This document shows positions 46,298 through 61,105 of a DNA stretch of 64,000 bases, piece after piece. The stretch comes from Acidovorax sp. 69. Lineage in GTDB: Bacteria; Pseudomonadota; Gammaproteobacteria; Burkholderiales; Burkholderiaceae_C. The DNA is taken from positions 2,604,501-2,668,500 of the forward strand of contig NZ_PGEP01000001.1 of assembly GCF_002797445.1 (NCBI RefSeq). Reading direction: 5' to 3'. Within the stretch, counting starts at the first letter, position 1; each line of letters starts with the position of its first letter. The position numbers were made by a program, and so were the translations under genes. The notes beneath the pieces were generated by a model that had not been told where the DNA came from, ran no database searches, and worked only from the letters and a program-made list of their open reading frames with translations.

Positions 46298-46342
46298 GCT
46301 GGGTTGGTTTTAGTGACTACTTGCAACGCCAGATCTGAGGCG

Positions 46343-46371
46343 GCAACTTGTCGGTATTTCCGACGAGTTGC
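46343..46371. promoter_or_regulatory. Inverted repeat between rhuM and hsdM
   Basis: GCAACTTGTCGG (46343-46354) and CCGACGAGTTGC (46360-46371) pair over 12 bases around TATTT, with one G-T wobble or mismatch. No T-run follows in either direction, so it is more likely an operator or mRNA structure 46 bases before hsdM than a terminator. Confidence 0.55.
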
Positions 46372-46425
46372 ACCCAATGAAGACGTTTTCTCTACACAAC
46401 GTGGTGAGAATTGAGAGCGGTTCGA

Positions 46426-47427
46426 TCATTTTTTCGGACGGCGTTTGATGCTGTTTTCCAGTGCCTTGAGTTCAGCCTCGTCCTGCCGGTCAGTTTGCAT
46501 GGCTTCTTGCTGTTTGCGGCGCTGGTCAAAGTCTTGGTACAGCGCCTCGGTTTTGGATTCCATCTGCGCGTGGCTGATGGCGCCCGCGTGCGCGAGCAGG
46601 GGGAAACCGTTGGTGCTGATGATCTGGTCCACGTTTTGCCGCCAAAATACCATGCGGATCTCCTGGCGGCTCTTGGTGCGCAGCTCTGCTGTTTCCAAAA
46701 AGATCACCACCAGTCGGTTCAAGGTGTCAATCTCGTCCTCGGACAGGTAATTTTTGGCCACCAGAATGTCCTGCTTGCGCACCTGCGCGCCCTTCCAATG
46801 CTGCAGGCCAAAGTTGGGATCGTTGCGGTCGGCCCGGGCGGTGACCAGTTCGGCTGCCGTCTTTTGCGTGACCGCGTAGAGCAGCTGGTTTTGCACGGTG
46901 GCAAAAAAGGTCTGCGTGGCCTGGTCGGTCTTGTCGTAGTCACTGGAGAGCGCAAACAGGTCGCGGACCTTTTGGTAAAAGCGCTTTTCCGAGGCCCGAA
47001 TGTCCCGGATGCGCGCCAGCATCTCGTCAAAGTAGTCCGGGCGGCCGTCGGGGTTCTTTAGCCGCTCATCGTCCATCACAAAACCCTTGACCAGATACTC
47101 CTTGAGCACAGTGGACGCCCAGCGGCGGAACTGCACCCCGCGCGGCGAGCGCACGCGGTAGCCCACGGACAGGATGGCGTCGAGGTTGTAGTGCGCCACG
47201 TGGTAGTTCTTGCCGTCTGCGGCAGTTATCAACCGTTGGTTGACAACTGAATCTTGGGCCAACTCTTGCTCAACGAAGATAGCTTTGAGGTGCTTGGCAA
47301 TGTTCTGCTTGCTGGTCTGGAACAACTCCGCCATCTCCAACTGACTGAGCCACACAGTGCCCAAATCAACTCGCAGCTGAATCTGGCTCTTACCATCGTC
47401 AGAGGTGTAAAGAATAAGGCCGCTCAT
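46426..47427 (-). CDS. rhuM: RhuM-family protein inside the type I operon
   Basis: This 333-residue protein matches the RhuM virulence-protein family: VWLSQLEMAELFQTSKQNIA (a helix-turn-helix-like start), YNLDAILSVGYRVRSPRGVQ and FRRWASTVLKEYLVKGFVMD. A C-terminal helical region contains EDEIDTLNRLVVIFLETAEL. The molecular function is unknown; the family is frequent in restriction-modification and defence islands. It starts with a four-base overlap of the PrrC-like gene. Confidence 0.88.
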   Translation of the reverse strand: MSGLILYTSDDGKSQIQLRVDLGTVWLSQLEMAELFQTSKQNIAKHLKAIFVEQELAQDSVVNQRLITAADGKNYHVAHYNLDAILSVGYRVRSPRGVQFRRWASTVLKEYLVKGFVMDDERLKNPDGRPDYFDEMLARIRDIRASEKRFYQKVRDLFALSSDYDKTDQATQTFFATVQNQLLYAVTQKTAAELVTARADRNDPNFGLQHWKGAQVRKQDILVAKNYLSEDEIDTLNRLVVIFLETAELRTKSRQEIRMVFWRQNVDQIISTNGFPLLAHAGAISHAQMESKTEALYQDFDQRRKQQEAMQTDRQDEAELKALENSIKRRPKK

Positions 47428-48641
47428 ACTGTTGCCGGTAATGGTGCGACAGTGGGTTTTTGCGAACCCGCAACTGCGGTAAGGCGGAATGCATAGCGGT
47501 TAAGGAAAACATGGAGAATTTCCCGAAACATTTTTTTATCAGTTGCTGTAATGGATTCCGACTCGAATACTGAATATTTCGCGTGACTTCGCACGTTCAG
47601 AAAACGCGCATAAAGTGCCTTCTTCGGAAGACCTTCAAAGCAAGTTGAAATGTGTTGGCGGCCAAAAAAAATAGCCGTCTTCTCAAGAATACTTCGCAGT
47701 GAATTGAAATGGTATTGCGAGATCTTTCCAGATTTCGCAACCGCACGCAGTTCCTCTAACGCTGCAACATGATGTAGAAATGGCGATTCGCTTGTATCTT
47801 CAAGCGTGTATGTCTGGGCTTCATTCAACCGGTGAAGAATGTATGCCTTCTTCTTTATGTCGACGTTGCTCTCAGGTGACCTTTTTCCTTTGAGTTCATT
47901 AAACATTACATTGAAAAATAGACCGTGGTGCGTAGATACAACGACCTTAAGTTTGTTGTCTTCACGCTTCAGTAAGCTACCGAGGCCAGCAGCAACAGCA
48001 ATGGTGTTTTGCTCGTCTAAGGAAGAGATGGGATCGTCAATATAGACATACTTCACCCAATCGTAGGGTTGCCCCTTATCCGCTTCAATGGCCAACTGCA
48101 GAATGGCCAAAAAGAAGCACCAAATAAAGATATTCTCTTCACCTCGTGAAATCTTGATGTCCTCAAGACGTCTGCGAATACCTGAAGTCGTCACGTTGCG
48201 AAAGAAGCGTATCTCTGCTGCGGCGTAATTGATTCTGAAATCAAAGTCTACATATTGATGCAGAAGAGGTCGGACCTGATCTTCAATACCCATACCATCC
48301 AGTCCATCGAAGAAATGAGACTCAGCCTTGAACTTAATCCTGCGATCCTTGTCTTCATCGAGATCATTGTCCCAATCGAAGAGATCTTCCGTAAAGGCAT
48401 TGAAGTAAAGCGTATCTCGTTTCTCTTCGTTCTTACCGAGATTCTTAAACTCCATCGACAATCGGGTTTTGCCCACACCGTTGTGTGCGAACACCAGAAC
48501 GAAGTCATTTTCAGCAACCGCAGTAGTACCTTTGCGCTGAAGTGTCTTCTTGCGCTTCTGAATTCCTTTTAAGTCTTTGCGGAACTTCCGTGCTAAAGAT
48601 TCCAAAGACCTGAATCTGGTGATGGTGGATGCCTTACTCAT
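47424..48641 (-). CDS. PrrC-like ABC-ATPase / putative anticodon nuclease
   Basis: This 405-residue protein has ABC ATPase motifs in order: Walker A AHNGVGKT (52-59), signature-like ISRGEEN (164-170), Walker B with D-loop YIDDPISSLDE (200-210) and H-loop STHH (236-239). The C-terminal part carries Arg316-x3-Glu320 and His353 (LRSILEK; NVRSHAKY). As known for PrrC and RloC, the tRNA-cleaving site is Arg-x3-Glu plus a His ~32 residues later, so the spacing fits. PrrC itself is ~396 residues and sits in a type I locus. It overlaps hsdS and rhuM by four bases each. Base composition is clearly more AT-rich than in flanking genes. Anticodon nuclease activity is inferred. Confidence 0.75.
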   Translation of the reverse strand: MSKASTITRFRSLESLARKFRKDLKGIQKRKKTLQRKGTTAVAENDFVLVFAHNGVGKTRLSMEFKNLGKNEEKRDTLYFNAFTEDLFDWDNDLDEDKDRRIKFKAESHFFDGLDGMGIEDQVRPLLHQYVDFDFRINYAAAEIRFFRNVTTSGIRRRLEDIKISRGEENIFIWCFFLAILQLAIEADKGQPYDWVKYVYIDDPISSLDEQNTIAVAAGLGSLLKREDNKLKVVVSTHHGLFFNVMFNELKGKRSPESNVDIKKKAYILHRLNEAQTYTLEDTSESPFLHHVAALEELRAVAKSGKISQYHFNSLRSILEKTAIFFGRQHISTCFEGLPKKALYARFLNVRSHAKYSVFESESITATDKKMFREILHVFLNRYAFRLTAVAGSQKPTVAPLPATV

Positions 48642-49864
48642 ACTTCGATGTCATCAATGGACGGGAAAAGTTGCTGCATCAGTCCTTTTTTGTGTTCGGC
48701 AAGAAATTCAAGTTTTCGAGCTTCACTACTGATCGAGATATCCAGATTCACTAGCCGCTCCGCAATCTTTCTTTGTTCCGCTACGTCCGGAAAAGCGCTT
48801 TCCCAGCTCTCGATCGCCCCCTTTGTGATGTGCATGATTCCAAGTCCGTTTGTGGTCTTGGCTTTCATTCTCTCGGTCTCATGCTCAAGCACGATGAAGA
48901 GAAACTGTTTATCGATACTCGGCTGCTCGACGACCTTCCAAATGTGGTAGTGATAAATAGTTTTCTCGCCACGCCAGACACGTGGCCCGAATGATGCAGA
49001 CCACGCATAAAGAAGGTCGCCATCTTCGCAATATTTCGTTTCATCCAGTTCAAGATTGGAGTGATACCAATTATTGTTAGTGAAAAAATTCCCAACACGC
49101 AGTACTTTATATTTTCCGGCTTCGAGAAGCTCTTCCTGTTTGTAAGCTCGCCCGTTGTAAAAATTCGCGGCAGAACCAAGGGTCATTTTTTTCCACTTCC
49201 CCGAATCCCGAAACTCAGGAAACCGCAGGCGGGGTTGGGTTTCGCCTTCGCGGGGGAAAAGCTGCTGCATCAGCCCTTTTTTGTGGGTCTTGAGCGCGTC
49301 CACTTTGCGGGCTTGCGCGGCGATCAGTTCGTCCAAGGAACGCAGGCAATCGGCGATTTTTTTCTGTTCGTCTGGCTTCGAAAGAGCAAGCGGTACTTCT
49401 GCCAAATCAGATGAATTGATTGCGGGGTAGCTTGAACCCGTGCATTTCGCTATTACGCGATCAACGAAACCATCAACATGAACGGCCTGATATAGAAAGT
49501 CTGCCGAATCTTTCGCCCTGAGTTGTGCGTATCCAGTAGAGGCAACGTATTCCAAGCCGTCGCTGGCTTTGAAATGAAAGTTGTTGCGTTGATATGGTCG
49601 AACAATCTGAAAAATCACATCATCGGGATGCAACAGTCTTTGCGCTCTGCTCGGCGCATCATCTATAGCAATAACCTTGCGCGCAGTCAATTTACCCGCT
49701 TCCACTGATTCAAGGTCGATATACACAAACATCGCGGGCAGCGCAGAACTCGAAGGATTTACTTCGCAGGCATCCTTCAGCCTCTTCCGAGACCACCCCT
49801 CCGCCCCCCGAAACTCCGGAAACCGCAGTTTAGGCACCAGCAGTGCTTTGTTCTTATTGCTCAT
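48638..49864 (-). CDS. hsdS: Type I restriction-modification system specificity subunit
   Basis: This 408-residue protein has two target recognition domains. Each is introduced by LRFPEFR and closed by a helical arm ending HKKGLMQQLFP, giving the pseudo-dimeric arrangement of HsdS. The two halves therefore each recognise one part of a bipartite site. Near-identical DNA repeats bracket both halves (see separate entries), allowing TRD exchange. The second TRD is AT-rich relative to hsdR. It overlaps hsdR by 11 bases and the PrrC-like gene by four. Confidence 0.93.
   Translation of the reverse strand: MSNKNKALLVPKLRFPEFRGAEGWSRKRLKDACEVNPSSSALPAMFVYIDLESVEAGKLTARKVIAIDDAPSRAQRLLHPDDVIFQIVRPYQRNNFHFKASDGLEYVASTGYAQLRAKDSADFLYQAVHVDGFVDRVIAKCTGSSYPAINSSDLAEVPLALSKPDEQKKIADCLRSLDELIAAQARKVDALKTHKKGLMQQLFPREGETQPRLRFPEFRDSGKWKKMTLGSAANFYNGRAYKQEELLEAGKYKVLRVGNFFTNNNWYHSNLELDETKYCEDGDLLYAWSASFGPRVWRGEKTIYHYHIWKVVEQPSIDKQFLFIVLEHETERMKAKTTNGLGIMHITKGAIESWESAFPDVAEQRKIAERLVNLDISISSEARKLEFLAEHKKGLMQQLFPSIDDIEV
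48663..48694 (-). repeat. hsdS internal direct repeat, distal copy
   Basis: This 32-base segment encodes the HKKGLMQQLFP arm at the C-terminus of HsdS. It matches the segment at 49254-49285 at 30 of 32 bases. Confidence 0.8.
49207..49228 (-). repeat. hsdS LRFPEFR-coding direct repeat, distal copy
   Basis: This 22-base segment before the second TRD matches 49807-49828 with a single difference, exactly 600 bases apart. Confidence 0.8.
49254..49285 (-). repeat. hsdS internal direct repeat, central copy
   Basis: This codes for the central HKKGLMQQLFP arm, 30 of 32 bases identical to 48663-48694. Recombination between the two copies would remove or swap the second TRD. Confidence 0.8.
49807..49828 (-). 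repeat. hsdS LRFPEFR-coding direct repeat, proximal copy
   Basis: This segment precedes the first TRD and matches 49207-49228 at 21 of 22 bases. Confidence 0.8.
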
Positions 49865-52800
49865 ACGCACTCAGCCCAGAAATATCCCGCCCCTGCGCGC
49901 GCTTGGTCAGCAGCGCCACCAGCTCTGTCATCAGCGCGGTTTCCGCCTGGGCACGGGCTTTCCAGCCCAGCTCCAGCGGGGCCATGAGGTCGCTCAAGGC
50001 CTCGCCATCAAAAATCATGCGCTGCAAGATGCCCTCCACAAAGGCTTGCAGAGCGGCGGGGATCAAGCCGTGCCGGGTGGCGATGCTGGCCAGCTCCGCG
50101 CTGTCTTTTTCCTTTTTAAACCGGGTGTAGCCGTCGCGGATGGTTTGTTCGCTCAGGCCTTCGCCGGCCTTCAGGGTGTTGATGTAGGCGGCAATGTCGT
50201 AGCGCTCGTTCATGAACTTGGCATCACTCTGGATGAGGCCAATGAGCTGCTCGCGGGTCATCTTCTGCTTGCCCGGCCCTTGGCTAGAGAAGCGGTGCAT
50301 CAGGCCCATGATGTAGTCGTAGTCGATCACCGCGCTGGCAAATAGCACAAATTCAAAGTCGAGCTGGTCTACCTCGGCGCTGGCTGCGCCGGTGTCGCCC
50401 TTGCCTTGCTGGGCCTGTTGCGCTTTGAGGCGCTGTGCTGTCTCCAAGTAGGCCCCGCGAAATGCTTGCAGGTTTTCTGCGGGCAATATCTGTTCGATGG
50501 CTGTAGTGTTGTCAGCCGTGAGGTCGGTGTATTGGTCTAGCTGGGTTTTCAGGCGCTGCACTTCTTTGAAGTGGCTGATAAACGCAGCGCGGGCATCGTC
50601 GCCCTTGAGGTTGTGCACGGCCTCGGGCGCGCAGTTGAGGCCCTGACTTTGCATGAAGTCAGCCAGCTTGGTGACCGCAGCGTCTAGCTTTTCAATCACC
50701 ACAGGGGCTTTGTCCACCAGCCAGATTTCGCGGGCCTGTTCGCTGGTCTTCTCGCCCGAGAACAGGGCAATGGCGGCATCTACGTTGTCTTGCTGGTTGC
50801 GGAAGTCGAGGATGTTGCCGTAGGGCTTGGTGCCGTTAAGCACGCGGTTGGTGCGCGAGAAGGCCTGTATCAAGCCATGGTGCTTGAGGTTTTTGTCTAC
50901 ATACAGGGTGTTGAGGTATTTGCTGTCAAAGCCGGTGAGCAGCATGTCCACCACGATGGTGATGTCGATCTTTTGGGCGGCGGGCAGGTCGGCATTGGGC
51001 CACTGCTGGTCTTTGATGCGTTTTTGCACGTCCTGGTAGTACAAGTCGAACTCGCTGATGCTGTGACTGGTGTTGTAGCGGGTGTTGTAGCTGGCCAGGA
51101 TGGCTTTGAGGGCGGCTTTTTTGCCCTCGGGGTCTTCTTCGTTGTCCTGCTTTTCTTGCGGCAGGTCTTGCTGCAGTTGCTTGACATCGGCATCGCCCTC
51201 GGCGGGGGGCGAGAACACGCAGGCGATGTTGAGCGGCACAAAGTCGGGGTCGGCTTCTTGTTTGGCTTTTTGCAGCTCGGCAAACAGGCTGTGGTACTCA
51301 ATAGCATCGTTAATGCTGGCGGTGGCCAGCACGGCATTGAAGCGGCGATTGGCAGTAGCCGTGTCGTGCTTGGCGAGGATTGCCTCTATGACGGCCCGCT
51401 TTGCCAGCGGCTCGCCGGGCTTGGGGGCCGTGGCCTTCTTGGTCTTAGCTTCTGCCTTGCCTTCTTCTTCCTTGGGCTTGAAGTAGTCCACATGGAAGCG
51501 CAGCACGTTGGCGTCTTCAATGGCGTGGGTGATGGTGTAGGCGTGCAGCTGCTTTTGGAAGATGTCTTCGGTGGTGCGCAGGCTGGCCTGTTCGTCCACG
51601 ATCTGAGTGCGGGTGGCGTTGGCCTCAAAGATGGGGGTGCCGGTAAAGCCAAAGAGCTGAGCCTTGGGGAAGAACTCTTTGATGGCGTCGTGGTTGGCAC
51701 CAAACTGGGAGCGGTGGCATTCGTCAAAGATGAAGACCACGCGCTTCTCGCGCAGCGGCTCCAACTGCTCTTTGTAGGTGGCGCGGCCATCCCTTTTTTG
51801 CTGCTGGTTGCGGTGGCTGGTTTCATCCAGCGCCAGGCCCAGCTTTTGGATGGTGGTGACGATGACCTTGTCGGCATAGTCGTCAGACAGCAGGCGGCGC
51901 ACCAGGCTGGCGGTGTTGGTGTTTTCCTCTACGCAGCCTTCTTGAAAGCGGTTGAACTCTTCGCGGGTCTGGCGGTCCAGGTCTTTGCGGTCCACCACAA
52001 ACAGGCATTTCTCCACGTCGGGGTTGTCCTTGAGCAGGGTGGATGCCTTGAAGGACGTGAGCGTTTTGCCGCTGCCGGTGGTGTGCCAGATGTAGCCGTT
52101 GCCGCTGTTGTGGTGGATACAGTCCACGATGTGTTTGACGGCGTACACCTGGTAGGGCCGCATCATCAGCAGCTTTTGCTCAGAGGCCACCAGCACCATG
52201 TAGCGGGCGAGCGTTTGGCCTAGCGTGCATTTGACGAGGAAGCTGTCGGCAAAGTCGTCCAGGTGGGTGATCTTTTTATTCGCCTCATCGGCAAACTGGT
52301 AGATGGGCAAAAAGCGCTCGTCGGCGTTGAACGCGAAGTGGCGCGCGTTGTTGTTGGCAAAGTAGTAGGTGCTGGCCCTGTTGCTGACGATAAACAGCTG
52401 CAAAAAGCACAGCAGCGTTTTGCTGTAGCCATTGCCGGGGTCGTTTTTATAGTCAACGATCTGCTCCATGGCCCTGCGAGGGTTGATGGTGAGCGTTTTC
52501 AGCTCTACCTGCACGCACGGCACGCCGTTAATGAGGATCAGAACGTCAAACCGATGGTGGCTGTTGTCGGTATTAATGCGCAGCTGGTTGACCACCTCAA
52601 AGGTGTTTTTGCACCAGTCTTTAATGTTGACCAGGGTGTAGTTCAGCGGCGTGCCGTCTTCGCGGGTGAACGAATTGATGCTGCGCAGGGTCTTGGCGGC
52701 GGTGAAAACGTCGGGGGTGACGATTTCGTCCAGCAGGCGGGCGAACTCGCCGTCTGACAGGTTGACTCGGTTCAGGGCTTCAAACTTCTCACGGAAATTT

Positions 52801-52952
52801 TTCTCAAGCGAGGCACGGTCGCGAATGTCGGCGCGGTATTCGTATTTCAGGCCCTGCAGCTTGCCGATGAAGCCGTATTCAATCTGCTGTTCCTTGACGG
52901 CATGAATCGGAGCGCCGGGCGCGGGGGCGTAGGTGGGCGTAGATGGAGGCAT
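49854..52952 (-). CDS. hsdR: Type I restriction enzyme motor and endonuclease subunit
   Basis: This 1032-residue protein begins with the PD-(D/E)xK nuclease region (Asp136, Glu150-x-Lys152 in RFDVLILINGVPCVQVELK). The helicase motor has Walker A TTGSGKT near 291-297, the DECHRSQFG box near 410 and later LLTGFDSKYLNTLYVDK. The C-terminal ~200 residues form the HsdM-contact region. It translocates DNA after HsdMS binds an unmethylated site and cuts far away. It is the first gene of the five-gene operon; the promoter should lie in 52953-53098, where no clear -35/-10 pair was recognised. Confidence 0.94.
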   Translation of the reverse strand: MPPSTPTYAPAPGAPIHAVKEQQIEYGFIGKLQGLKYEYRADIRDRASLEKNFREKFEALNRVNLSDGEFARLLDEIVTPDVFTAAKTLRSINSFTREDGTPLNYTLVNIKDWCKNTFEVVNQLRINTDNSHHRFDVLILINGVPCVQVELKTLTINPRRAMEQIVDYKNDPGNGYSKTLLCFLQLFIVSNRASTYYFANNNARHFAFNADERFLPIYQFADEANKKITHLDDFADSFLVKCTLGQTLARYMVLVASEQKLLMMRPYQVYAVKHIVDCIHHNSGNGYIWHTTGSGKTLTSFKASTLLKDNPDVEKCLFVVDRKDLDRQTREEFNRFQEGCVEENTNTASLVRRLLSDDYADKVIVTTIQKLGLALDETSHRNQQQKRDGRATYKEQLEPLREKRVVFIFDECHRSQFGANHDAIKEFFPKAQLFGFTGTPIFEANATRTQIVDEQASLRTTEDIFQKQLHAYTITHAIEDANVLRFHVDYFKPKEEEGKAEAKTKKATAPKPGEPLAKRAVIEAILAKHDTATANRRFNAVLATASINDAIEYHSLFAELQKAKQEADPDFVPLNIACVFSPPAEGDADVKQLQQDLPQEKQDNEEDPEGKKAALKAILASYNTRYNTSHSISEFDLYYQDVQKRIKDQQWPNADLPAAQKIDITIVVDMLLTGFDSKYLNTLYVDKNLKHHGLIQAFSRTNRVLNGTKPYGNILDFRNQQDNVDAAIALFSGEKTSEQAREIWLVDKAPVVIEKLDAAVTKLADFMQSQGLNCAPEAVHNLKGDDARAAFISHFKEVQRLKTQLDQYTDLTADNTTAIEQILPAENLQAFRGAYLETAQRLKAQQAQQGKGDTGAASAEVDQLDFEFVLFASAVIDYDYIMGLMHRFSSQGPGKQKMTREQLIGLIQSDAKFMNERYDIAAYINTLKAGEGLSEQTIRDGYTRFKKEKDSAELASIATRHGLIPAALQAFVEGILQRMIFDGEALSDLMAPLELGWKARAQAETALMTELVALLTKRAQGRDISGLSAYEQ

Positions 52953-53098: not shown

Positions 53099-54172
53099 CT
53101 AAGGCAAATTCTCCCGAAAAATCACCTGGCTCCGCGTCGTCTCCACCCCACTCGTCGGCTCCCGCCCATCCCGCACATTCGCAAAAATCCGCACGCAGTT
53201 CATCACCGCGCCCTGCGGGTTCTGGGTGATCACTGCATCCATCGTTCCGTCGATCAGCAGCGCCCGCGTATCCGGCGTGAGGCCGTGGCCGATGAACACG
53301 ATCTTGCGGTCTGCGCCCGCCTCTTTCAGCGCCCGGCCAATGCCTTCGGCCCCGCCGCCGATGTTGTAGATGCCTGCCAGGTCGTCGTGCTGCTCCAGCA
53401 GCGCGCGGGCTTGGCGGTAATTGCGTTCGGCGTCGTCCTGGCCTTCGCGCACGCCCACCACCTGCACCAGGGGGAACTGTTCTTCAAACAGGTGCAAAAA
53501 GCCCGCCTCGCGCTCCTCGTGGGCGCGGTAGCGCAATGAGCCAACAATCATCGCCACATGCGCCTTGCGGCTGTGGGCCAGCGGGCCCATGAAGCGGGCG
53601 ATCAGGTAGGCGGCGGTGCGGCCTGCGGCGCGGTTGTCCAGGCCCACGTAGGCCACGCGGCGCGAGTTGGATAGGTCTGAAATCAAAGTGACGGTGGGCA
53701 CGCCCTGCTCTGCCAGCTGGGCCACGGCCTCGCGCACCACGGGGTGCTCCAGCGCCATGAAGGCGATGCCGTCGCAGCGTTTGCCGTAGTGCAGCAGTGC
53801 TTTGGCCAAGGCGTCGGGGTTAAAGCTTTCGATGTACGCCGCCTGGCAGCGCACGTTGAACGGTGCCCAGTGGTCTTGCGCGTAGCCGATCACGTCGCCC
53901 AGCATTTGCAGAAAGCGGTTGCTGCCCTCGGGGATCAGCACCATCAGGCGCAGGGGCTGGGGTTGCAGCGCTGCGTGCACCTCAGCCTGCGGCAGGTAGC
54001 CCAGGGTGGCAGCGGCCTGCAGCACCCGCTGCGCGGTGGCGTTGCGCACGCCCGAGCGCTGGTTCAGCACCCGGTCGACCGTGGCTGTGGAGACGCCGGA
54101 CAGCTGGGCAATATCGGGGATGCGCGGGCTGCGAGGGGCCTGAACAGGTAATGAGGTGGGTGATTGGGCCAT
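53099..54172 (-). CDS. LacI-family transcriptional regulator of the RuBisCO-like cluster
   Basis: This 357-residue regulator has a LacI helix-turn-helix (IPDIAQLSGVSTATVDRVLN) with hinge region, then a periplasmic-binding-protein-like effector domain of the Peripla_BP_4 type (VLIPEGSNRFLQML; VAYVGLDNRAAGRTAAYLI). The effector is probably a sugar or sugar acid. It is divergent from the ABC transporter genes, and the shared 277-base gap holds paired CCATCA motifs that are likely operators. Confidence 0.9.
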   Translation of the reverse strand: MAQSPTSLPVQAPRSPRIPDIAQLSGVSTATVDRVLNQRSGVRNATAQRVLQAAATLGYLPQAEVHAALQPQPLRLMVLIPEGSNRFLQMLGDVIGYAQDHWAPFNVRCQAAYIESFNPDALAKALLHYGKRCDGIAFMALEHPVVREAVAQLAEQGVPTVTLISDLSNSRRVAYVGLDNRAAGRTAAYLIARFMGPLAHSRKAHVAMIVGSLRYRAHEEREAGFLHLFEEQFPLVQVVGVREGQDDAERNYRQARALLEQHDDLAGIYNIGGGAEGIGRALKEAGADRKIVFIGHGLTPDTRALLIDGTMDAVITQNPQGAVMNCVRIFANVRDGREPTSGVETTRSQVIFRENLP

Positions 54173-54181
54173 GATTCAATT

Positions 54182-54275
54182 CCATCAAAAACCATCATCT
54201 ATTTTGCTGGTATTTGATGGGTTCCGCGGATAGTATCACTGGGCGTTCGATGCTGAAAGGCATCAGAAACCATCA
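54182..54275. promoter_or_regulatory. Two copies of a 16-base operator-like element
   Basis: CCATCAAAAACCATCA (54182-54197) and GCATCAGAAACCATCA (54260-54275) agree at 14 of 16 bases. Each contains two CATCA boxes 10 bases apart, and an inverted TGATGG is at 54215-54220. They flank the likely promoters of lacI and of the transporter operon, a layout consistent with looping repression by the LacI-family protein. Confidence 0.6.
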
Positions 54276-54326
54276 GTAAAAACCCTAGGTTGCAACGGCC
54301 AAGACCGATTGCGCAGGAGACAAGAC

Positions 54327-54431
54327 ATGCCTGATACCCCCACCCTTGCCGCGTGCCGCGCCCCGGGCTTGCCCGTGCCGTTCGTGCCGTTTGTGCCGTT
54401 CGCGACCAGGCGCCCCGCCTGCGTGCGCTGA
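54327..54431 (+). CDS. Possible 34-residue leader peptide ahead of the transporter operon
   Basis: An ATG at 54327 with GGAG seven bases upstream, the best ribosome binding site in the region, opens a 34-codon frame that reads MPDTPTLAACRAPG and then a VPFVPFVPF repeat, ending at TGA 54431. The repeat is encoded by three 9-base GTGCCGTTC units (54375-54401). The first permease starts 18 bases later without its own ribosome binding site, so translation coupling is plausible. It could be a real leader peptide or the leftover start of a lost gene. Confidence 0.5.
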   Translation: MPDTPTLAACRAPGLPVPFVPFVPFATRRPACVR

Positions 54432-54449
54432 AGCATCGCCGCCGCGCCC

Positions 54450-55133
54450 ATGCAATACGAGTTTGACTTTGCCAGCGTGCTGGCCAACTGGCCCCAGTTT
54501 CTGGAAGGGGCGTGGATGACCATCTTGCTGTCCTTCCCGGCCACGGTGATTGGTTTTGTGGGTGGCACGCTGCTGGCCATTGGGCGGCGCGGCGACACGC
54601 GCTGGCTGGCCAAGGCCTGCGGTGTGTATGTGGAAGTGCTGCGCAACACGCCGCTGCTGGTGCAGGTTTTTTTGGTGTTCTTTGGCCTGGCCAGCCTGGG
54701 CTTCAAGGTGTCGGCGTTTGCTGCGGCGCTGCTGACGCTGGTGATCAACGTGGCGGCCTACACCTGCGAAATCATGCGGGCCGGTATGGATTCCATCCAC
54801 AAGGGGCAGATAGAAGCGGCCGAGTGCCTGGGGCTGACGCGCCGGCAGGTGTACTGGCATGTGGTGATTCGCCCGGCGATGGAGAAGGTGTACCCCGCGC
54901 TGACGAGCCAGTTTGTGCTGCTGATGCTGGCCTCGTCCATCACCTCGCAAATCTCGGTGGAAGAGCTGACCGCCGTGGCAGCGCGGGTGCAGTCAGAGAC
55001 CTTCCGCCCGTTTGAGGCTTACATCCTGGTGGCGGTGGCGTACCTAGCGTTGTCGCTGCTGATGCGGCTGGGGCTGTGGGTGTTCGGGCAGATCGTGTTC
55101 ACGCGCCAGCGCAAATTGGGGAGCGCCAAATGA
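54450..55133 (+). CDS. ABC transporter permease, polar amino acid family (first)
   Basis: This 227-residue inner-membrane permease of the HisMQ/GlnP type has about five hydrophobic helices. Its EAA loop reads IEAAECLGLTRRQVYWHVV, and the upstream VEVLRNTPLLVQVFLVFFGL is the family hallmark. With the second permease it forms the channel. The start codon has no recognisable ribosome binding site; it probably relies on the short frame ending at 54431. Such transporters move amino acids, opines or related small polar acids. Confidence 0.9.
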   Translation: MQYEFDFASVLANWPQFLEGAWMTILLSFPATVIGFVGGTLLAIGRRGDTRWLAKACGVYVEVLRNTPLLVQVFLVFFGLASLGFKVSAFAAALLTLVINVAAYTCEIMRAGMDSIHKGQIEAAECLGLTRRQVYWHVVIRPAMEKVYPALTSQFVLLMLASSITSQISVEELTAVAARVQSETFRPFEAYILVAVAYLALSLLMRLGLWVFGQIVFTRQRKLGSAK

Positions 55134-55816
55134 TCGACGGTGGACTGAACTCGTATCACCTGCAGTACCTGTTGTTTGGCGCGCTGTGGACGGTGGGGCT
55201 GTCGCTGATTGCGTTTGTAGGCGGCGGCCTGGCCGGGGGCGTGATTGCGCTGTGCCGCGTCAGCCCTATCAAGGCGGTGCGCTGGGCCACGATTGCGTGG
55301 ATTCAGATCATCCAGGGCACGCCGCTGCTGGTGGTGCTGTTCTTGTGCTACTTCGGCCTGAGCATTGCGGGGCTGGAGCTGCCCGCCATCGTGGCGGCCA
55401 GCATTGCGATGATTGTCTATGTCAGCGCCTATCTGGGCGAGATATGGCGCGGTTGCATTGAATCGGTGCCGCGCACGCAGTGGGAGGCGGCCGAGTGCTT
55501 GGCGCTGTCGCGCACCCAGCGCATGCGGCTGGTGGTGCTGCCGCAGGCGGTGCGCATTGCCACGCCGCCCACGGTGGGCTTCATGGTGCAGATCGTGAAG
55601 AACACCTCGCTGGCGTCCATCGTGGGGTTTATCGAGCTGGTGCGTGCGGGGCAGCTCATCAACAACTCCATTTTTCAGCCCTTTACCGTGTACCTGCTGA
55701 TCGCCATCGTCTACTTTGCGATGTGCTACCCGCTGTCGGTGTGGAGCCGCAAGCTGGAGCAGCGCCAGCAGTTTGGAAACCGTGGCCCAGCCACTGTGCC
55801 TGTGACCACCGCATGA
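55130..55816 (+). CDS. ABC transporter permease, polar amino acid family (second)
   Basis: This 228-residue partner permease has IQIIQGTPLLVVLFLCYFGL and the EAA loop WEAAECLALSRTQRMRLVVL. It overlaps the first permease by four bases (ATGA). Having two distinct permeases implies a heterodimeric channel as in HisQM. Confidence 0.9.
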   Translation: MIDGGLNSYHLQYLLFGALWTVGLSLIAFVGGGLAGGVIALCRVSPIKAVRWATIAWIQIIQGTPLLVVLFLCYFGLSIAGLELPAIVAASIAMIVYVSAYLGEIWRGCIESVPRTQWEAAECLALSRTQRMRLVVLPQAVRIATPPTVGFMVQIVKNTSLASIVGFIELVRAGQLINNSIFQPFTVYLLIAIVYFAMCYPLSVWSRKLEQRQQFGNRGPATVPVTTA

Positions 55817-55830
55817 AACGAGAAGACACC

Positions 55831-56640
55831 ATGAACCTCGCCCAAGACGCTGCTGTGCAATCTGTTGCGCACGCTGCTTTGTCTGCACAACAACCACAAC
55901 AACATCGACAGCAACAGCGCGTGGTCGAACTGAAAGACGTGCACAAAAGCTTTGGCAGCAACCAGGTGCTCAAGGGCGTGTCGTTTGCCATTCCCAAGGG
56001 GCAGGTGGTGGCCATCATCGGCAAGAGCGGGTCGGGCAAGAGCACGGCGCTGCGTTGTATTGACCGGCTGGAGATCATCGACAGCGGCACCATCAACGTC
56101 TGCGGCCACGCGGTGCACGACCCCGCCATCGACCTGCGCCAGCTGCGCCAGGACGTGGGCATTGTGTTCCAGAGCTACAACCTCTTCCCGCACCTGACGG
56201 TGGAGCAGAACGTGACCCTGGCGCCCAAGGCCGTCAAGAACATGCCCGCCGCCAAGGCGCGCGAGATTGCCGCGCGCACCCTGCAGCAGGTGGGCCTGGC
56301 CGACAAGGCGCAGGCATACCCCGAGCAACTGTCGGGCGGGCAGCAGCAGCGCGTGGCCATTGCCCGGTCGCTGGCGATGGAGCCGCAGGTGATGCTGTTT
56401 GACGAGGTGACCTCGGCGCTAGACCCGCAACTGACCGGCGAGGTGCTGCGCGTGATCGAAGCCCTGGCCCAGGGCGGCATGACCATGGTGCTGGTCACGC
56501 ACGAGATGGAGTTTGCCGCCCGCGTGGCCGACACCATCATCTACATGCACGAAGGCAAGGTGTGGGAGACGGGCCCGGGCGCGATGCTCAAAAACCCGCA
56601 AACCGCCGAGCTGCGCGATTTTCTGTCGCACGGGCTTTGA
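55831..56640 (+). CDS. ABC transporter ATP-binding protein, polar amino acid family
   Basis: This 269-residue ATPase has Walker A GKSGSGKST, Q-loop VFQSYNLFPHLTV, signature LSGGQQQRVAIARSLA, Walker B VMLFDEVTSALDP and switch His in VLVTHEMEFA. A Gln-rich N-terminal tail (AQQPQQHRQQQ) precedes the fold and is unusual. An ATG at 55813 overlapping the permease stop is an alternative start; 55831 has GAGAAG at better spacing. Confidence 0.92.
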   Translation: MNLAQDAAVQSVAHAALSAQQPQQHRQQQRVVELKDVHKSFGSNQVLKGVSFAIPKGQVVAIIGKSGSGKSTALRCIDRLEIIDSGTINVCGHAVHDPAIDLRQLRQDVGIVFQSYNLFPHLTVEQNVTLAPKAVKNMPAAKAREIAARTLQQVGLADKAQAYPEQLSGGQQQRVAIARSLAMEPQVMLFDEVTSALDPQLTGEVLRVIEALAQGGMTMVLVTHEMEFAARVADTIIYMHEGKVWETGPGAMLKNPQTAELRDFLSHGL

Positions 56641-56693
56641 CTGTTGATGCGCCGCTTATCGAGACGACATGAACCCACTAGAACCCACAAGAG

Positions 56694-56753
56694 CCGTTCA
56701 CGCTGAGCTTGTCGAAGCGCTGCGCGAGGCTTCGACAAGCTCAGCCCGAACGG
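56694..56753. repeat. REP-like inverted pair, copy 1
   Basis: GCTGAGCTTGTCGAAGC faces GCTTCGACAAGCTCAGC, with CCGTTC and GAACGG at the outer ends. It lies between the ATPase and binding-protein genes and should form a long hairpin in the mRNA. The same element recurs at 58299. Confidence 0.8.
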
Positions 56754-56833
56754 AATTTGAGATTTCTACGCGCCCGACCACCCGAGCCCTGCCCCTTTCG
56801 ATTCACTAGCAAAAACGACCAGGAGACAACACC

Positions 56834-57631
56834 ATGACCACTTCCCTCACCCTCCTCCGCCGCACCCTGTTGGCCGTCAGCGCCGCCGCCCTGTGCGTGC
56901 CCGCGATGGCCGAGCTGGCCGACATCAAGTCCGCTGGCAAGCTGCGCGTGGGCATTGACTTTGGCGCGCCGTTTTACGGCTATGTGGACGAAAAGATGAA
57001 GCCCGTGGGCTCGGACGTGGAAGCCGCCGAGCTGCTGGCCAAGGACCTGGGCCTGACGCTGGAGATCGTGAACACCACCAACTCGTCGCGCATCCCCAAC
57101 CTGCTGTCGAACAAGGTGGACCTGATCATCTCGTCGCTGTCGATCACGCCAGATCGCCAGAAGGCGGTGGATTTTTCTATCCCCTACGGCGCTATTCAGG
57201 CTGCGGTGGGCGCGCCCAAGAGCATGAAGCTCACCAGCATTGAAGACCTGGCGGGCAAGACCGTGGCCGTGACGCGCGGTGGCCCGCAAGACAAGATCGT
57301 GACCGAGCGCGCGCCGCAGGCCAAGGTGGTGCGGTTTGATGACGAATCGGCCTCCATCACCGCCGCCGCCACCGGCCAGGCCGACATCGTGGCGATCACG
57401 CCGCCCATCATCGCGGCCATCGCCAAGAAGAACCCGTCGCGCGACTTTGAGACCAAGTTCATTCTGCAGTCGTACCAGCTGGGCGTGGCCATGCGCAAAG
57501 GCCAGCCCGAGCTGATGGCCGCCGTGAACAGCTGGATCAAGACCAACCTGGCCAACGGCAAGCTGAACGACATCCATGTGAAGTACGCGGGCGTGCCCAT
57601 CCCCAAAGAAATCATCGACGGCGCGAAGTAA
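56834..57631 (+). CDS. Periplasmic substrate-binding protein of the ABC transporter (SBP_bac_3)
   Basis: This 265-residue protein has a signal peptide cleaved after VPAMA. The family-3 binding fold is seen as SAGKLRVGIDFGAPFYGYVD, PVGSDVEAAELLAKDLGLTL and DLIISSLSITPDRQKAVDFS. The Arg in SSLSITPDR that usually grips the amino acid alpha-carboxylate is present, so the ligand should carry a carboxylate. AGGAGA precedes the ATG. The REP-like hairpin upstream probably lets this gene be expressed at a different level from the rest. Confidence 0.9.
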   Translation: MTTSLTLLRRTLLAVSAAALCVPAMAELADIKSAGKLRVGIDFGAPFYGYVDEKMKPVGSDVEAAELLAKDLGLTLEIVNTTNSSRIPNLLSNKVDLIISSLSITPDRQKAVDFSIPYGAIQAAVGAPKSMKLTSIEDLAGKTVAVTRGGPQDKIVTERAPQAKVVRFDDESASITAAATGQADIVAITPPIIAAIAKKNPSRDFETKFILQSYQLGVAMRKGQPELMAAVNSWIKTNLANGKLNDIHVKYAGVPIPKEIIDGAK

Positions 57632-57725
57632 GCCAATAAGCAAACCAAGCCTGCAACCTGGGCGGCGCCTGTGGGCCCCGCCCGGCTGCGCCCTGCCCTC
57701 ACGCATCAATACCAAAGGAATTTTT

Positions 57726-58268
57726 ATGAGCCGTCATTTCGGCGCCATCCGCCAACTTGGCTACGTGGTCCACGACATCGAAGCCGCCATGGACTATTGG
57801 AGCAAGACCCTGGGCGTGGGACCGTGGTTTTACAACCCCAAGGTTCCGATCAAGAACTACGTGTACCAGGGCGAGTCGTACGAGCCGCACAACTCGGTGG
57901 CGCTGGCCAACTCGGGCTACGTGCAGGTCGAGCTGATCCAGACCCGCAACGATGTGCCGTCGATGTACCGCGATTTTTTGCAGGCCGGGCGCACCGGGCT
58001 GCAGCACGTGGCGTACTGGACCAGCGACTACGACGCCGACTTGGCACGGCTGACGGCCCAGGGCTTCAAGACGGTGATGAGCGGCGAGGTGGGCGAAAAA
58101 GGCCGGTTCGTCTATTTCGACACCGAGTACCACCCGGGCACGGTGATCGAGCTGTCGGAAGTGGCGGGCCCCAAGGGCCGCATGTTCGATTTGATCCGTG
58201 CGGAATCGGAAACCTGGGACGGGACGACCGACCCGGTGCGGCCTTTTCCTGATCTGTCGAAGATTTGA
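57726..58268 (+). CDS. VOC-family metalloprotein in the RuBisCO-like cluster
   Basis: This 180-residue vicinal-oxygen-chelate protein has two beta-alpha-beta modules. Likely metal ligands are Gln10 (RQLGYVV), Glu69 (VQVELIQ), His94 (GLQHVAYW) and Glu142 (GTVIELSE); the first position is usually His. VOC enzymes include glyoxalase I, epimerases and ring-cleaving dioxygenases, often acting through an enediolate. An isomerase or epimerase step on the imported acid is plausible in this operon. AAGGAATTTTT lies before the ATG. Confidence 0.85.
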   Translation: MSRHFGAIRQLGYVVHDIEAAMDYWSKTLGVGPWFYNPKVPIKNYVYQGESYEPHNSVALANSGYVQVELIQTRNDVPSMYRDFLQAGRTGLQHVAYWTSDYDADLARLTAQGFKTVMSGEVGEKGRFVYFDTEYHPGTVIELSEVAGPKGRMFDLIRAESETWDGTTDPVRPFPDLSKI

Positions 58269-58298
58269 TTTTTAGGTGCCGATCATCTCAACCCCCAA

Positions 58299-58368
58299 CC
58301 GTTCGGGCTGAGCTTGTCGAAGCCTGTTGGAGCTTCATCCGGCCTTTCGACAGGCTCAAGGCGAACGG
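58299..58368. repeat. REP-like inverted pair, copy 2
   Basis: CGGGCTGAGCTTGTCGAAGC faces the degenerate TTTCGACAGGCTCAAGGCG across a longer loop, with CCGTTC and GAACGG outer ends as in copy 1. It lies between the VOC and RuBisCO-like genes. Confidence 0.78.
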
Positions 58369-58399
58369 GGGGCCAGCCAGCCGAGCATTCACGATTTTT

Positions 58400-58460
58400 A
58401 AGCCAAATTGGCATCTAGCGCTTATCCTATAAGCGCTAGCAGCTATCAAAACAGTAGTAA
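58400..58460 (+). repeat. Copy of the dispersed AGCGCT palindromic repeat in the leader of the RuBisCO-like gene
   Basis: A perfect 11-base stem CTAGCGCTTAT / ATAAGCGCTAG (58415-58425 and 58429-58439) has a CCT loop, followed by CAGCTATCAAAACAGTAG. It ends about ten bases before the ATG at 58471, where no ribosome binding site is visible. Confidence 0.8.
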
Positions 58461-58470
58461 AGCCTTAACC

Positions 58471-59748
58471 ATGTCCCCCAACCGCTTTGAAGCCACCTAC
58501 CTGATCGAAACCCCGCTGGACCCTGCCCACGTGGCCGAAGTGCTGGCAGGCGAGCAATCGTGCGGCACCTTCACCCGGGTAGAGGGCGAGACCGACGCGC
58601 TGCGCGAACGCGCCCGCGCCACGGTGGAATCGGTGGAGCTGCTGGACGTGGCACCGGCCCCCTCGCTGCCCAACGGCTGGATGCAGCGGCGCGGCATGTT
58701 CGATACGCCGCAAACCTGGCAGCGCGCCCGGCTGCGCGTGAGTTTTCCGTGCGACAACATCGGCCCCAACCTGCCCACGCTGGCGGCCACGGTGTCAGGC
58801 AACCTGTACGACCTGGGCGAAGTCACCGGCCTGCGGCTGGAGTCTATGAAGCTGCCGGCCGAATACCGACGCCAGTTCGACATGCCCCGCCACGGCATCA
58901 CCGGCACGCGCGCGGTGACGGGTGTGCAGGGCCGCCCGCTCATCGGCACCATCATCAAACCCAATGTGGGCCTGTCGGCCGAAGAAACGGGCGACTTGGC
59001 GGGCCGCCTGTGCGCCGCCGGGGTGGATTTCATCAAGGACGACGAGGTGTGCGCGAACCCGGTGCACGCGCCGCTGGCCGACCGGGTGCGCTCGGTGATG
59101 CGCCGGGTGCGCGCCCACCAGGACAAAACCGGCAAGTTGGTGATGGTGGCCTTCAACATCACCGACGAAACCGACGCCATGCGCCGCCATGCGGACCTGA
59201 TTGCGGCCGAGGGCGGCAGCTGCATCATGGTCAGCCTGAACTGGGCTGGTTACTCCGCCGTGCAAACCCTGCGCCGCCACAGCCCGCTGGCGCTGCACGG
59301 CCACCGCAACGGCTACGGCGCGCTGTCGCGCCACCCGTTGCTGGGCTTTTCGTTCAACGCCTGGCAGACGCTGTGGCGACTGGCGGGTGTCGACCACATG
59401 CATGTGCACGGGCTGCAGGGCAAGTTCTCGCAGACCGACGAAGAAGTGATAGCGTCGGCCCACGACACCCTGGCGCCGCTGTGCGAAGGCCTGGACGACC
59501 GGGTGCTGCCCGCGTTCTCCAACGGCCAATGGGCGGGCACTGTGCCCGCCACATGGGACAGCATCCAGTCCAACGACCTGCTGTTCATGTCTGGCGGCGG
59601 CATTCTGGCCCACCCAGACGGTGCCGCTGCAGGCGTGGCCAGCCTGCAGCAGGCGTGGGACGCGGTGCAAAAGGGCGAGACGCTGGCAGAACGTGCCGTG
59701 CACGCGCCCGAGCTGCGCCGCGCCATCGACTTTTTCGGCAAGAAATAA
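58471..59748 (+). CDS. RuBisCO-like protein (form IV type), likely sugar-acid-phosphate decarboxylase or transcarboxylase
   Basis: This 425-residue protein has the RuBisCO large-subunit fold. It keeps the carbamylated Lys and metal ligands as Lys189, Asp191 and Glu192 (GVDFIKDDEV), the Lys175 equivalent as Lys163 (GTIIKPNVGLS), His276-x-His278-Arg279, His309 and His311, the loop-6 Lys as Lys318 (QGKFSQ) and Ser374-Gly-Gly. The Lys177 equivalent is Asn165, so true CO2 fixation is unlikely. RuBisCO-like proteins next to DUF1537 kinases are known to decarboxylate or hydrolyse 3-oxo-isoapionate 4-phosphate in D-apiose breakdown; that is the best guess here. The kinase gene follows after 31 bases. 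Confidence 0.88.
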   Translation: MSPNRFEATYLIETPLDPAHVAEVLAGEQSCGTFTRVEGETDALRERARATVESVELLDVAPAPSLPNGWMQRRGMFDTPQTWQRARLRVSFPCDNIGPNLPTLAATVSGNLYDLGEVTGLRLESMKLPAEYRRQFDMPRHGITGTRAVTGVQGRPLIGTIIKPNVGLSAEETGDLAGRLCAAGVDFIKDDEVCANPVHAPLADRVRSVMRRVRAHQDKTGKLVMVAFNITDETDAMRRHADLIAAEGGSCIMVSLNWAGYSAVQTLRRHSPLALHGHRNGYGALSRHPLLGFSFNAWQTLWRLAGVDHMHVHGLQGKFSQTDEEVIASAHDTLAPLCEGLDDRVLPAFSNGQWAGTVPATWDSIQSNDLLFMSGGGILAHPDGAAAGVASLQQAWDAVQKGETLAERAVHAPELRRAIDFFGKK

Positions 59749-59779
59749 ATAGACCACCACACACACAAACAGACCCACC

Positions 59780-61105
59780 ATGACCACAACGGCCCCTTTG
59801 TTTGGCTGGTACGGCGACGACTTTACGGGCGCTACCGACACGCTGGCGGTACTGGCGCAGGCCGGTTTGCGCGCCATGTTGTTCATGGGCGTGCCCAGCC
59901 CCGAAGCCCTGGCCGCTGCAGGCCCGCTGGATGCCGTTGGCATTGCAGGCGCAGCCCGAGCGATGGCGCCCGATGCCATGCGCACAGAGTTGTCAGGCGT
60001 GGGCCGTTTCTTTGAAAAAGTGGCGCCACCAGTGCTGCACTACAAGGTGTGCTCCACCTTCGACAGCGCGCCGCATGTCGGCAACATCGCCTGCGCCATC
60101 CAGGCGCTGCACCCCTCGGTGAGTAACCGATGGGTACCCATCATTGGCGGGCAACCGAGCCTGGGGCGTTACTGCGCCTTCAGCAACTTGTTCGCAGCCG
60201 CAGGCACAGGCGGGCTCGTGCACCGCATCGACCGCCACCCCACCATGCGCCAGCACCCGGTCACGCCGATGGGCGAGGCCGACCTGCGGCTGCACCTGGC
60301 GCATCAGGGGCTTGAGAACATCACCGCCCTGCACTACCCGCAATACGACACCGACGCCGACGCGCTGGACGACGCACTGCGCGCGTTGCTGAGCGCCGAT
60401 GCAGCCTTGATCCCAACCCTGCTGGACCTGACCACATCCTCCCAATTGGCCGTCGTCGGACGTTTGCTGTGGGACCAAGCCCAACACGCCCGCTTGCTGG
60501 CCGTGGGCTCCAGCGCGGTGGCCCAGGCGCTGGTCGCCCACTGGGGCAAGCCGACTTCCAAGGCCGCTGCACCGCTGGCGCCCGCCGACGGTCCGGTGTT
60601 TGCCTGGGCAGGCAGCTTGTCGCCCCTGACCGCGGCGCAGGTGCAGGCCGCTACCGCATACCACCGCATTGCCGTGGACGCCCAGCGGCTGTGCAGCGAC
60701 ACGGCCTACGCTCAGGATCTGCGAGACGCCATCTGCGAGGGGCTGCAGAGCCTGCAGAACGTACTGGCCTTCACCGGCCCCACGGACGGCGCGCCGCTGG
60801 CCGCTGCGGCCTCGTCCACCGACATCGCCCAGGCCAGCGCCCATCTGATCGCCCGCGTGGTGCAAGCCCGCGCAGAACGCGGTGCGCCACTGCGCCGCAT
60901 CGGCATCGCTGGCGGTGACACGTCAAGCCACGCAGTCCAGGCGCTGCAGTTGTGGGGGCTGTCGTACAAGACCACAGTCTGCGCGGGCGTCACGCTGAGC
61001 AGCGCGCACAGCGCAGACCCGTCACGCCACGGGCTGGAGTTGATGCTGAAGGGCGGGCAGATGGGCGGAACGGATTTGTTCCAAAAGCTGCTCGGCACCG
61101 CCTGA
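59780..61105 (+). CDS. DUF1537 four-carbon/branched acid sugar kinase
   Basis: This 441-residue kinase has an N-terminal substrate domain (WYGDDFTGATDTLAVLAQAG; HYKVCSTFDSAPHVGNI) and a C-terminal nucleotide-binding domain (IGIAGGDTSSHAVQALQLWG; LELMLKGGQMGGTDLF). Members phosphorylate threonate, erythronate, 2-oxo-tetronates or 3-oxo-isoapionate. Adjacency to the RuBisCO-like protein favours the 3-oxo-isoapionate type, since tetronate kinases usually travel with PdxA2 or aldolases, which are absent here. It is the last gene of the operon. Confidence 0.88.
   Translation: MTTTAPLFGWYGDDFTGATDTLAVLAQAGLRAMLFMGVPSPEALAAAGPLDAVGIAGAARAMAPDAMRTELSGVGRFFEKVAPPVLHYKVCSTFDSAPHVGNIACAIQALHPSVSNRWVPIIGGQPSLGRYCAFSNLFAAAGTGGLVHRIDRHPTMRQHPVTPMGEADLRLHLAHQGLENITALHYPQYDTDADALDDALRALLSADAALIPTLLDLTTSSQLAVVGRLLWDQAQHARLLAVGSSAVAQALVAHWGKPTSKAAAPLAPADGPVFAWAGSLSPLTAAQVQAATAYHRIAVDAQRLCSDTAYAQDLRDAICEGLQSLQNVLAFTGPTDGAPLAAAASSTDIAQASAHLIARVVQARAERGAPLRRIGIAGGDTSSHAVQALQLWGLSYKTTVCAGVTLSSAHSADPSRHGLELMLKGGQMGGTDLFQKLLGTA

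Follow-up and report, generated by a model that had tools for sequence, protein, structure and literature searches.

Two described pathways come closest to the system reported here. The 3-oxo-tetronate pathway consists of an isomerase (OtnI), a kinase (OtnK) and a decarboxylase (OtnC), whereas the D-apionate pathway, reportedly worked out by Carter et al. in 2018, runs through 3-oxo-isoapionate with ApnO, OiaK and either OiaX or OiaT. In PMC6302742, A. radiobacter K84 and X. autotrophicus are reported to have RuBisCO-like proteins (RLPs) that act on 3-oxo-isoapionate-4-phosphate, either by decarboxylation or by transcarboxylation followed by hydrolysis. The stretch analysed here, 64,000 nucleotides of Acidovorax sp. 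69 (NZ_PGEP01000001.1, positions 2,604,501 to 2,668,500; "the window"), contains a related gene set at 53,099 to 61,105. Its core is formed by three plus-strand genes for a VOC enzyme (57726..58268; Glyoxalase_4, PF13669), which we propose as an isomerase, an RLP (58471..59748; PF00016) and an OiaK-related DUF1537 kinase (59780..61105; SBD_N and NBD_C, by Pfam and NCBIfam matches). We read the locus as a catabolic operon for one organic acid, controlled by a LacI-family protein, in which the VOC enzyme takes the place of ApnO; as the best explanation of our data we give this reading a probability of about 0.45. The architecture is well supported, and the chemistry is put forward as a hypothesis.

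The comparison behind this reading comprised 121 loci, the window included, and was made by tblastn. A scan of genome contigs with the RLP contributed its 80 top-scoring loci out of at least 429, close relatives at 65-96% identity (the closest outside the window's genome among these 80 are Acidovorax strains, at 95-96%); among plasmids, 365 records had a match and ten regions were opened. A less biased sample came from 397 genomes drawn evenly from the phylum. Here eight RLP matches lie at 60-100% identity (window included) and 23 at 40-53%, followed by matches in the RuBisCO range at no more than 34%; all 30 regions in the upper two tiers, not counting the window's, were retrieved. Three short rows that repeat the window's own match or L094 (L081, L092 and L093) were dropped before counting, and L026 and L096 are apparently one contig counted twice, so that the counts include at least one such case.

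RLP residues 165 and 313 sort the 121 loci into Asn/His (93, here called VOC-type), Ser/Asn or Ser/Ser (21, S-type) and Ala/Asn (7). The VOC gene adjoins the RLP gene in 92 of the 93 Asn/His loci, the remaining one (L078) being cut by a contig end upstream, and ApnO occurs at none of the 93 loci that carry VOC (these 92 and the S-type L101) within the stretches compared at each locus, to which all our counts of ApnO around RLPs are limited. S-type loci have the VOC gene once (L101) and ApnO in ten of 21 cases, and all seven Ala/Asn loci have ApnO. When the 27 loci of non-VOC type are taken together, with L078 left out, none has VOC beside the RLP and 17 have ApnO; around the RLP the two enzymes exclude each other. 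RLPs of the VOC loci, L101 excepted, are 58-100% identical to that of the window, compared with 39-52% for the 27 others. The kinase gene follows the RLP gene in 92 of 93 VOC loci (the exception lies on a cut contig), and the divergent lacI gene is kept in 91, L051 and L053 being cut contigs. The same arrangement of genes is found in both Alpha- and Betaproteobacteria, with RLPs of as little as 58% identity, a recurrence far above chance. The converse test agrees: in the 397-genome draw, all nine VOC genes of 69-100% identity adjoin an RLP gene.

More distant VOC paralogues proved unhelpful as a clue to the chemistry, since 11 inspected regions with paralogues of 38-55% identity contained neither an RLP nor a kinase match. 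Paralogues of 50-55% in unrelated surroundings (L137-L142, L145-L147) are common in genus g124, possibly Bradyrhizobium, and at L088 an unrelated VOC-family gene is annotated about 1 kb from the RLP gene.

An earlier note on this DNA had regarded the VOC gene as inserted, an idea that must be given up: with adjacency in 92 of 93 loci the gene is a constant partner of this type of RLP, and a late insertion is rejected. Its gene assignments hold, each with a clear family match, and its remark on missing upstream apionate enzymes agrees with the finding that a PGDH_C (ApnO) protein occurs nowhere in the genome, a single 4.97 Mb contig with one RuBisCO-family match. Our data support its idea of a modified 3-oxo-isoapionate end-pathway that is entered differently, and that of a VOC enzyme likely acting ahead of kinase and RLP. 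The note would have been refuted by a lack of conservation of VOC and transporter genes with the RLP gene; VOC proved to be conserved, and so did the presence of an importer, but the type of importer varies. Of the supposed eight-gene co-directional block, seven genes share the plus strand while lacI is divergent on the minus strand.

The VOC-type RLPs form one clade with an SH-aLRT support of 100 (42 of 63 tree rows), and L101 falls among the S-type. To judge from the alignment, this clade includes PDB 3nwr, which matches the window's protein with 642 bits over the whole RLP and shares all clade markers checked in the printed alignment. Compared with type III RuBisCO, the K-P-K loop, whose lysine is K177 in the numbering and with the residue roles generally given for RuBisCO, reads K-P-N; the resulting Asn165, found throughout the 92 VOC-linked RLPs of this type, separates the protein from true RuBisCO. 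His313, two residues past the conserved His311, occupies a position at which RuBisCO has Gly and other RLPs have Asn or, once, Ser. His311 and the Phe-Ser pair at 349-350 are kept in VOC-type and S-type RLPs, and OiaX-type RLPs have Gln and either Ala-Gly or Ala-Cys at these positions. The window's RLP does not belong to OiaX itself (405 bits against the 700 of NF042437), whereas the ApnO-linked L117 and L119 reach 778 and 782. The kinase scores 297 bits for OiaK (cut-off 700, NF042436) and 163 for OtnK (cut-off 350); the former cut-off does not discriminate, because all nine kinases tested stay below it, even two encoded next to true OiaX (456 and 475), and within this set the VOC-type kinases score lowest (186 and 297 versus 428-551).

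The AlphaFold model of the VOC enzyme (pLDDT 91.7) has the fold of metal-dependent epimerases, with 3gm5 and methylmalonyl-CoA epimerases as nearest structures. Six residues do not vary among 33 sequences: Gln10, His55, Gln67, Glu69, His94 and Glu142. Of these, Gln10 and His94 correspond to metal ligands of the epimerase, and the second ligand is uncertain, either Glu69 or Gln67. A Gln-Glu-His-Glu ligand set is that of human glyoxalase I, an enediol-forming isomerase, and because of this resemblance we hypothesise an enediol or ketol isomerisation as the first choice for the VOC reaction. In the pathway that we propose, the acid would be taken up through an exchangeable importer, ABC here and TRAP in most relatives, and the VOC metalloenzyme would turn it, with no redox step, into a beta-keto acid of the type of 3-oxo-isoapionate, the likely reaction being an enediol or ketol shift that starts from the 2-oxo isomer. 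It would thereby fill the slot that the oxidoisomerase ApnO has in D-apionate breakdown. The DUF1537 kinase would phosphorylate the terminal hydroxyl, and the RLP would break down the 4-phosphate by decarboxylation, or by transcarboxylation and hydrolysis.

Exchanges of whole modules between operons bear on the order of these steps. The importer is of TRAP type in 78 and of amino-acid-type ABC in 15 of the 93 VOC loci; the transporter is an exchangeable part of the operon. In trees of VOC and RLP (47 rows, quick search with SH-aLRT support), the window's VOC groups with ABC-type VOCs of Pseudorhodoferax and Xenophilus (96), and its RLP groups with those of TRAP-type operons of Caenimonas, Ramlibacter and Acidovorax soli (100). 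Because the two placements disagree, the VOC gene seems to have moved with the transporter, and such joint travel would match the expectation for the first enzyme after uptake. A second exchange is found in genus g124, where ten of 146 genomes searched have the VOC gene at 76-79% identity. One of them (L136) keeps the usual RLP-kinase pair; in the other nine (L101, L128-L135) an S-type RLP and an OiaK-related kinase stand behind lacI-TRAP-VOC: the ApnO-linked type of pair has taken over the position of the usual one, and the operon is otherwise unchanged. A PF16896 (PGDH_C, ApnO-domain) protein is found in none of these nine swapped genomes, as against eight of 11 genomes with non-VOC RLPs in the same search, which was positive in ten of 29 genomes altogether, the other two positives being among 18 with a VOC operon (G328 and G245). 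In the nine swapped genomes nothing but the VOC enzyme is seen that could feed the RLP, and from a swap of RLP and kinase without ApnO it follows that the beta-keto acid coming from VOC is probably of the same kind as that made by ApnO.

Control of the operon would lie with the LacI-family protein encoded by the minus-strand lacI gene at 53099..54172 (LacI-type helix-turn-helix, PF00356, 54 bits; Peripla_BP_4, PF13407), acting through direct-repeat operators. A motif search found two predicted operators on the plus strand between lacI and the importer genes, at 54183..54197 and, 78 bp from the first, at 54261..54275, both of the form CATCA-N5-CATCA with the two halves one helical turn apart. 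Of 91 lacI intergenic regions, 77 contain this motif in its strict form and 82 with the first base relaxed, compared with 0.3 and 1.7 expected from first-order Markov shuffles. Each of the other spacings between 0 and 15, whether the halves are direct or inverted, occurs in no more than 16 of the 91 loci, and inverted arrangements of the core, as in a palindromic operator, reach at most nine. Grouped by the next gene, the motif precedes ABC in 15 of 15 regions, the short-chain dehydrogenase (SDR) gene discussed below in 9 of 10, TRAP in 55 of 57 and a roseobacter-like TRAP in 3 of 9. Usually two copies are present per region, mostly 76-79 bp apart (34 cases), with further peaks at 87-90 (14), 66 (6) and 10 bp (13); the tandem 10-bp steps reveal three repeats at some sites. 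The looser motif was searched within the window and the consensus CATCARAAMYCATCA across the whole genome, where it has two exact matches, both local, and four with one mismatch. From these patterns we infer that the LacI protein binds the direct repeat. In a survey that looked for palindromes, LacI-family motifs are palindromes, usually with a central CG (PMC4052901), and direct repeats, with a 1 bp spacer, are described for CytR (PMC3454398).

Several observations weigh against a common substrate type and against VOC as its redox-free source. VOC-type RLPs differ from the others at active-site positions, and their substrate may differ more than we have assumed; the swapped RLP-kinase pairs of g124 could have changed specificity. 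One of the nine swapped operons (L135, G447 C2:501232-501768) has a VOC gene with one in-frame TAG, either a broken gene or a sequencing error. Genome G245 holds both a VOC operon (L098) and an ApnO-linked RLP cluster (L109), and G328 combines a VOC operon with ApnO at another place, a co-occurrence that fits two different substrates equally well; G245 is a natural place for comparing the substrates of the VOC-type and ApnO-linked systems. The lack of ApnO is not peculiar to VOC loci, as ten of the 27 non-VOC loci are likewise without it. The S-type RLPs are presumably of the OiaT (transcarboxylase) kind, an assignment helped by pyk or eno genes near five of their loci (L086, L088, L089, L090 and L106), whose products could use 3-phosphoglycerate; eno is also found at the VOC-type locus L025. 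An SDR gene at some VOC loci suggests oxidation in some hosts, and the substrate, the VOC reaction, the order of steps and the outcome of the RLP reaction are inferred.

The SDR gene lies between lacI and TRAP in 10 of the 93 VOC loci (L007, L008, L044, L054, L056, L062, L068, L070, L073 and L082) and occurs in six of the eight rows of one well-supported VOC subclade. Together with the in-place acquisition of an ApnO-linked RLP-kinase pair, it could indicate a D-apionate pathway in which the work of ApnO is split: a dehydrogenase, this SDR or an unlinked one, would produce the 2-oxo acid, a ketol shift by VOC would yield 3-oxo-isoapionate, and kinase and RLP would act as OiaK and OiaT. We consider this improbable for the window. 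Its genome contains no orthologue of the SDR, which rejects an obligatory SDR step there; in 48 genomes searched the best matches have 57 and 56% identity, both within S-type RLP clusters; no further exact operator site lies elsewhere in the genome; and G245 carries both kinds of cluster. The SDR seems to be an accessory enzyme by which further acids become usable. A redox-free route is favoured because the window's cluster has no dehydrogenase gene, the SDR orthologue is missing and only the two local exact CATCARAAMYCATCA sites exist.

About equally improbable is an epimerase role, in which VOC would act on a keto acid, either imported or produced in the cell, and invert the carbon beside its keto group so that kinase and RLP can use the product. 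The nearest folds are indeed methylmalonyl-CoA epimerases and a weak TIGR03081 match exists, but with 27.8 bits it is far below the cut-off of 114.95, Gln10 replaces the first metal-ligand His of these enzymes, and in 3-oxo-isoapionate the carbon concerned is quaternary, so that proton transfer cannot epimerise it. An opine or amino-acid-like substrate, considered in the earlier note, is very unlikely. It would suit the importer, which has two PAAT-type permeases (54450..55133 and 55130..55816; PF00528; HEQRo_perm_3TM domain, TIGR01726, at 101.6 and 91.6 bits against a cut-off of 42.2), a GlnQ-like ATPase (55831..56640; PF00005) and an SBP_bac_3 binding protein (56834..57631; PF00497, 112 bits), all on the plus strand. 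However, TRAP stands in place of ABC in 78 of 93 loci, and no amine-handling gene is present in the window's block. The binding site offers a weaker argument: the 12 distinct SBP_bac_3 proteins of the genome (13 matches, two of which are one frame) all have Arg108, and Thr189, present in 15 of 15 orthologues, replaces the Asp of two amino-acid binders, which mildly supports a non-amino-acid ligand, although eight of the 12 proteins also lack this Asp and only four have it. The carboxylate importer of the same note is supported.

The operon looks self-contained and compact. Downstream it is limited by a minus-strand aspartate kinase gene beyond the DUF1537 kinase gene, and on the lacI side it adjoins a type I restriction-modification locus (44687-52952; HsdM, HsdS and HsdR) with a RhuM-family and an AAA_13 gene between HsdM and HsdS. 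The repeat GAGCTTGTCGAAGC forms an inverted pair ahead of the binding-protein gene (56705-56742) and is present as a single copy ahead of the RLP gene (58310-58323); at one mismatch or less the window has four matches, with 0.03 expected.

Our preferred reading, an operon with VOC in place of ApnO, gives PDB 3nwr and its whole RLP clade a fixed genetic context of importer, VOC enzyme and kinase, and with so short a pathway the acid can be sought through the ligands of one binding protein. A bolder version is tentative and rather doubtful: VOC might catalyse the isomerase half of the ApnO reaction, a ketol-acid isomerisation free of redox chemistry, as a further entry into RLP catabolism for an acid new as a growth substrate, with a new function for the 3nwr clade and a regulator among the few direct-repeat readers of the LacI family. 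If VOC is such an isomerase, it adds a reaction to those of the VOC superfamily and gives bacteria a second route to the beta-keto acid consumed by these RLPs. In the literature searched, which comprised few subscription journals, no description of a VOC-RLP-kinase pathway or of a function of 3nwr was found.

Among the known systems, PDB 3nwr, listed as "A rubisco-like protein" with no function named, is related by score and clade markers. Methylmalonyl-CoA epimerase and 3gm5 share the fold of the VOC superfamily with the window's enzyme, which differs by Gln10 and its low TIGR03081 score. With the 3-oxo-tetronate pathway the locus has in common the logic of redox-free isomerase, DUF1537 kinase and decarboxylase, but it has VOC for OtnI and an RLP for OtnC, and its kinase is below the OtnK cut-off. 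The D-apionate pathway likewise has adjacent DUF1537 kinase and RLP genes, and the conserved Lys, Asp, Glu and His residues are retained in the RLP; in contrast, the window has VOC for ApnO, an RLP of another clade (Asn165, His313), and RLP and kinase scores under the OiaX and OiaK cut-offs.

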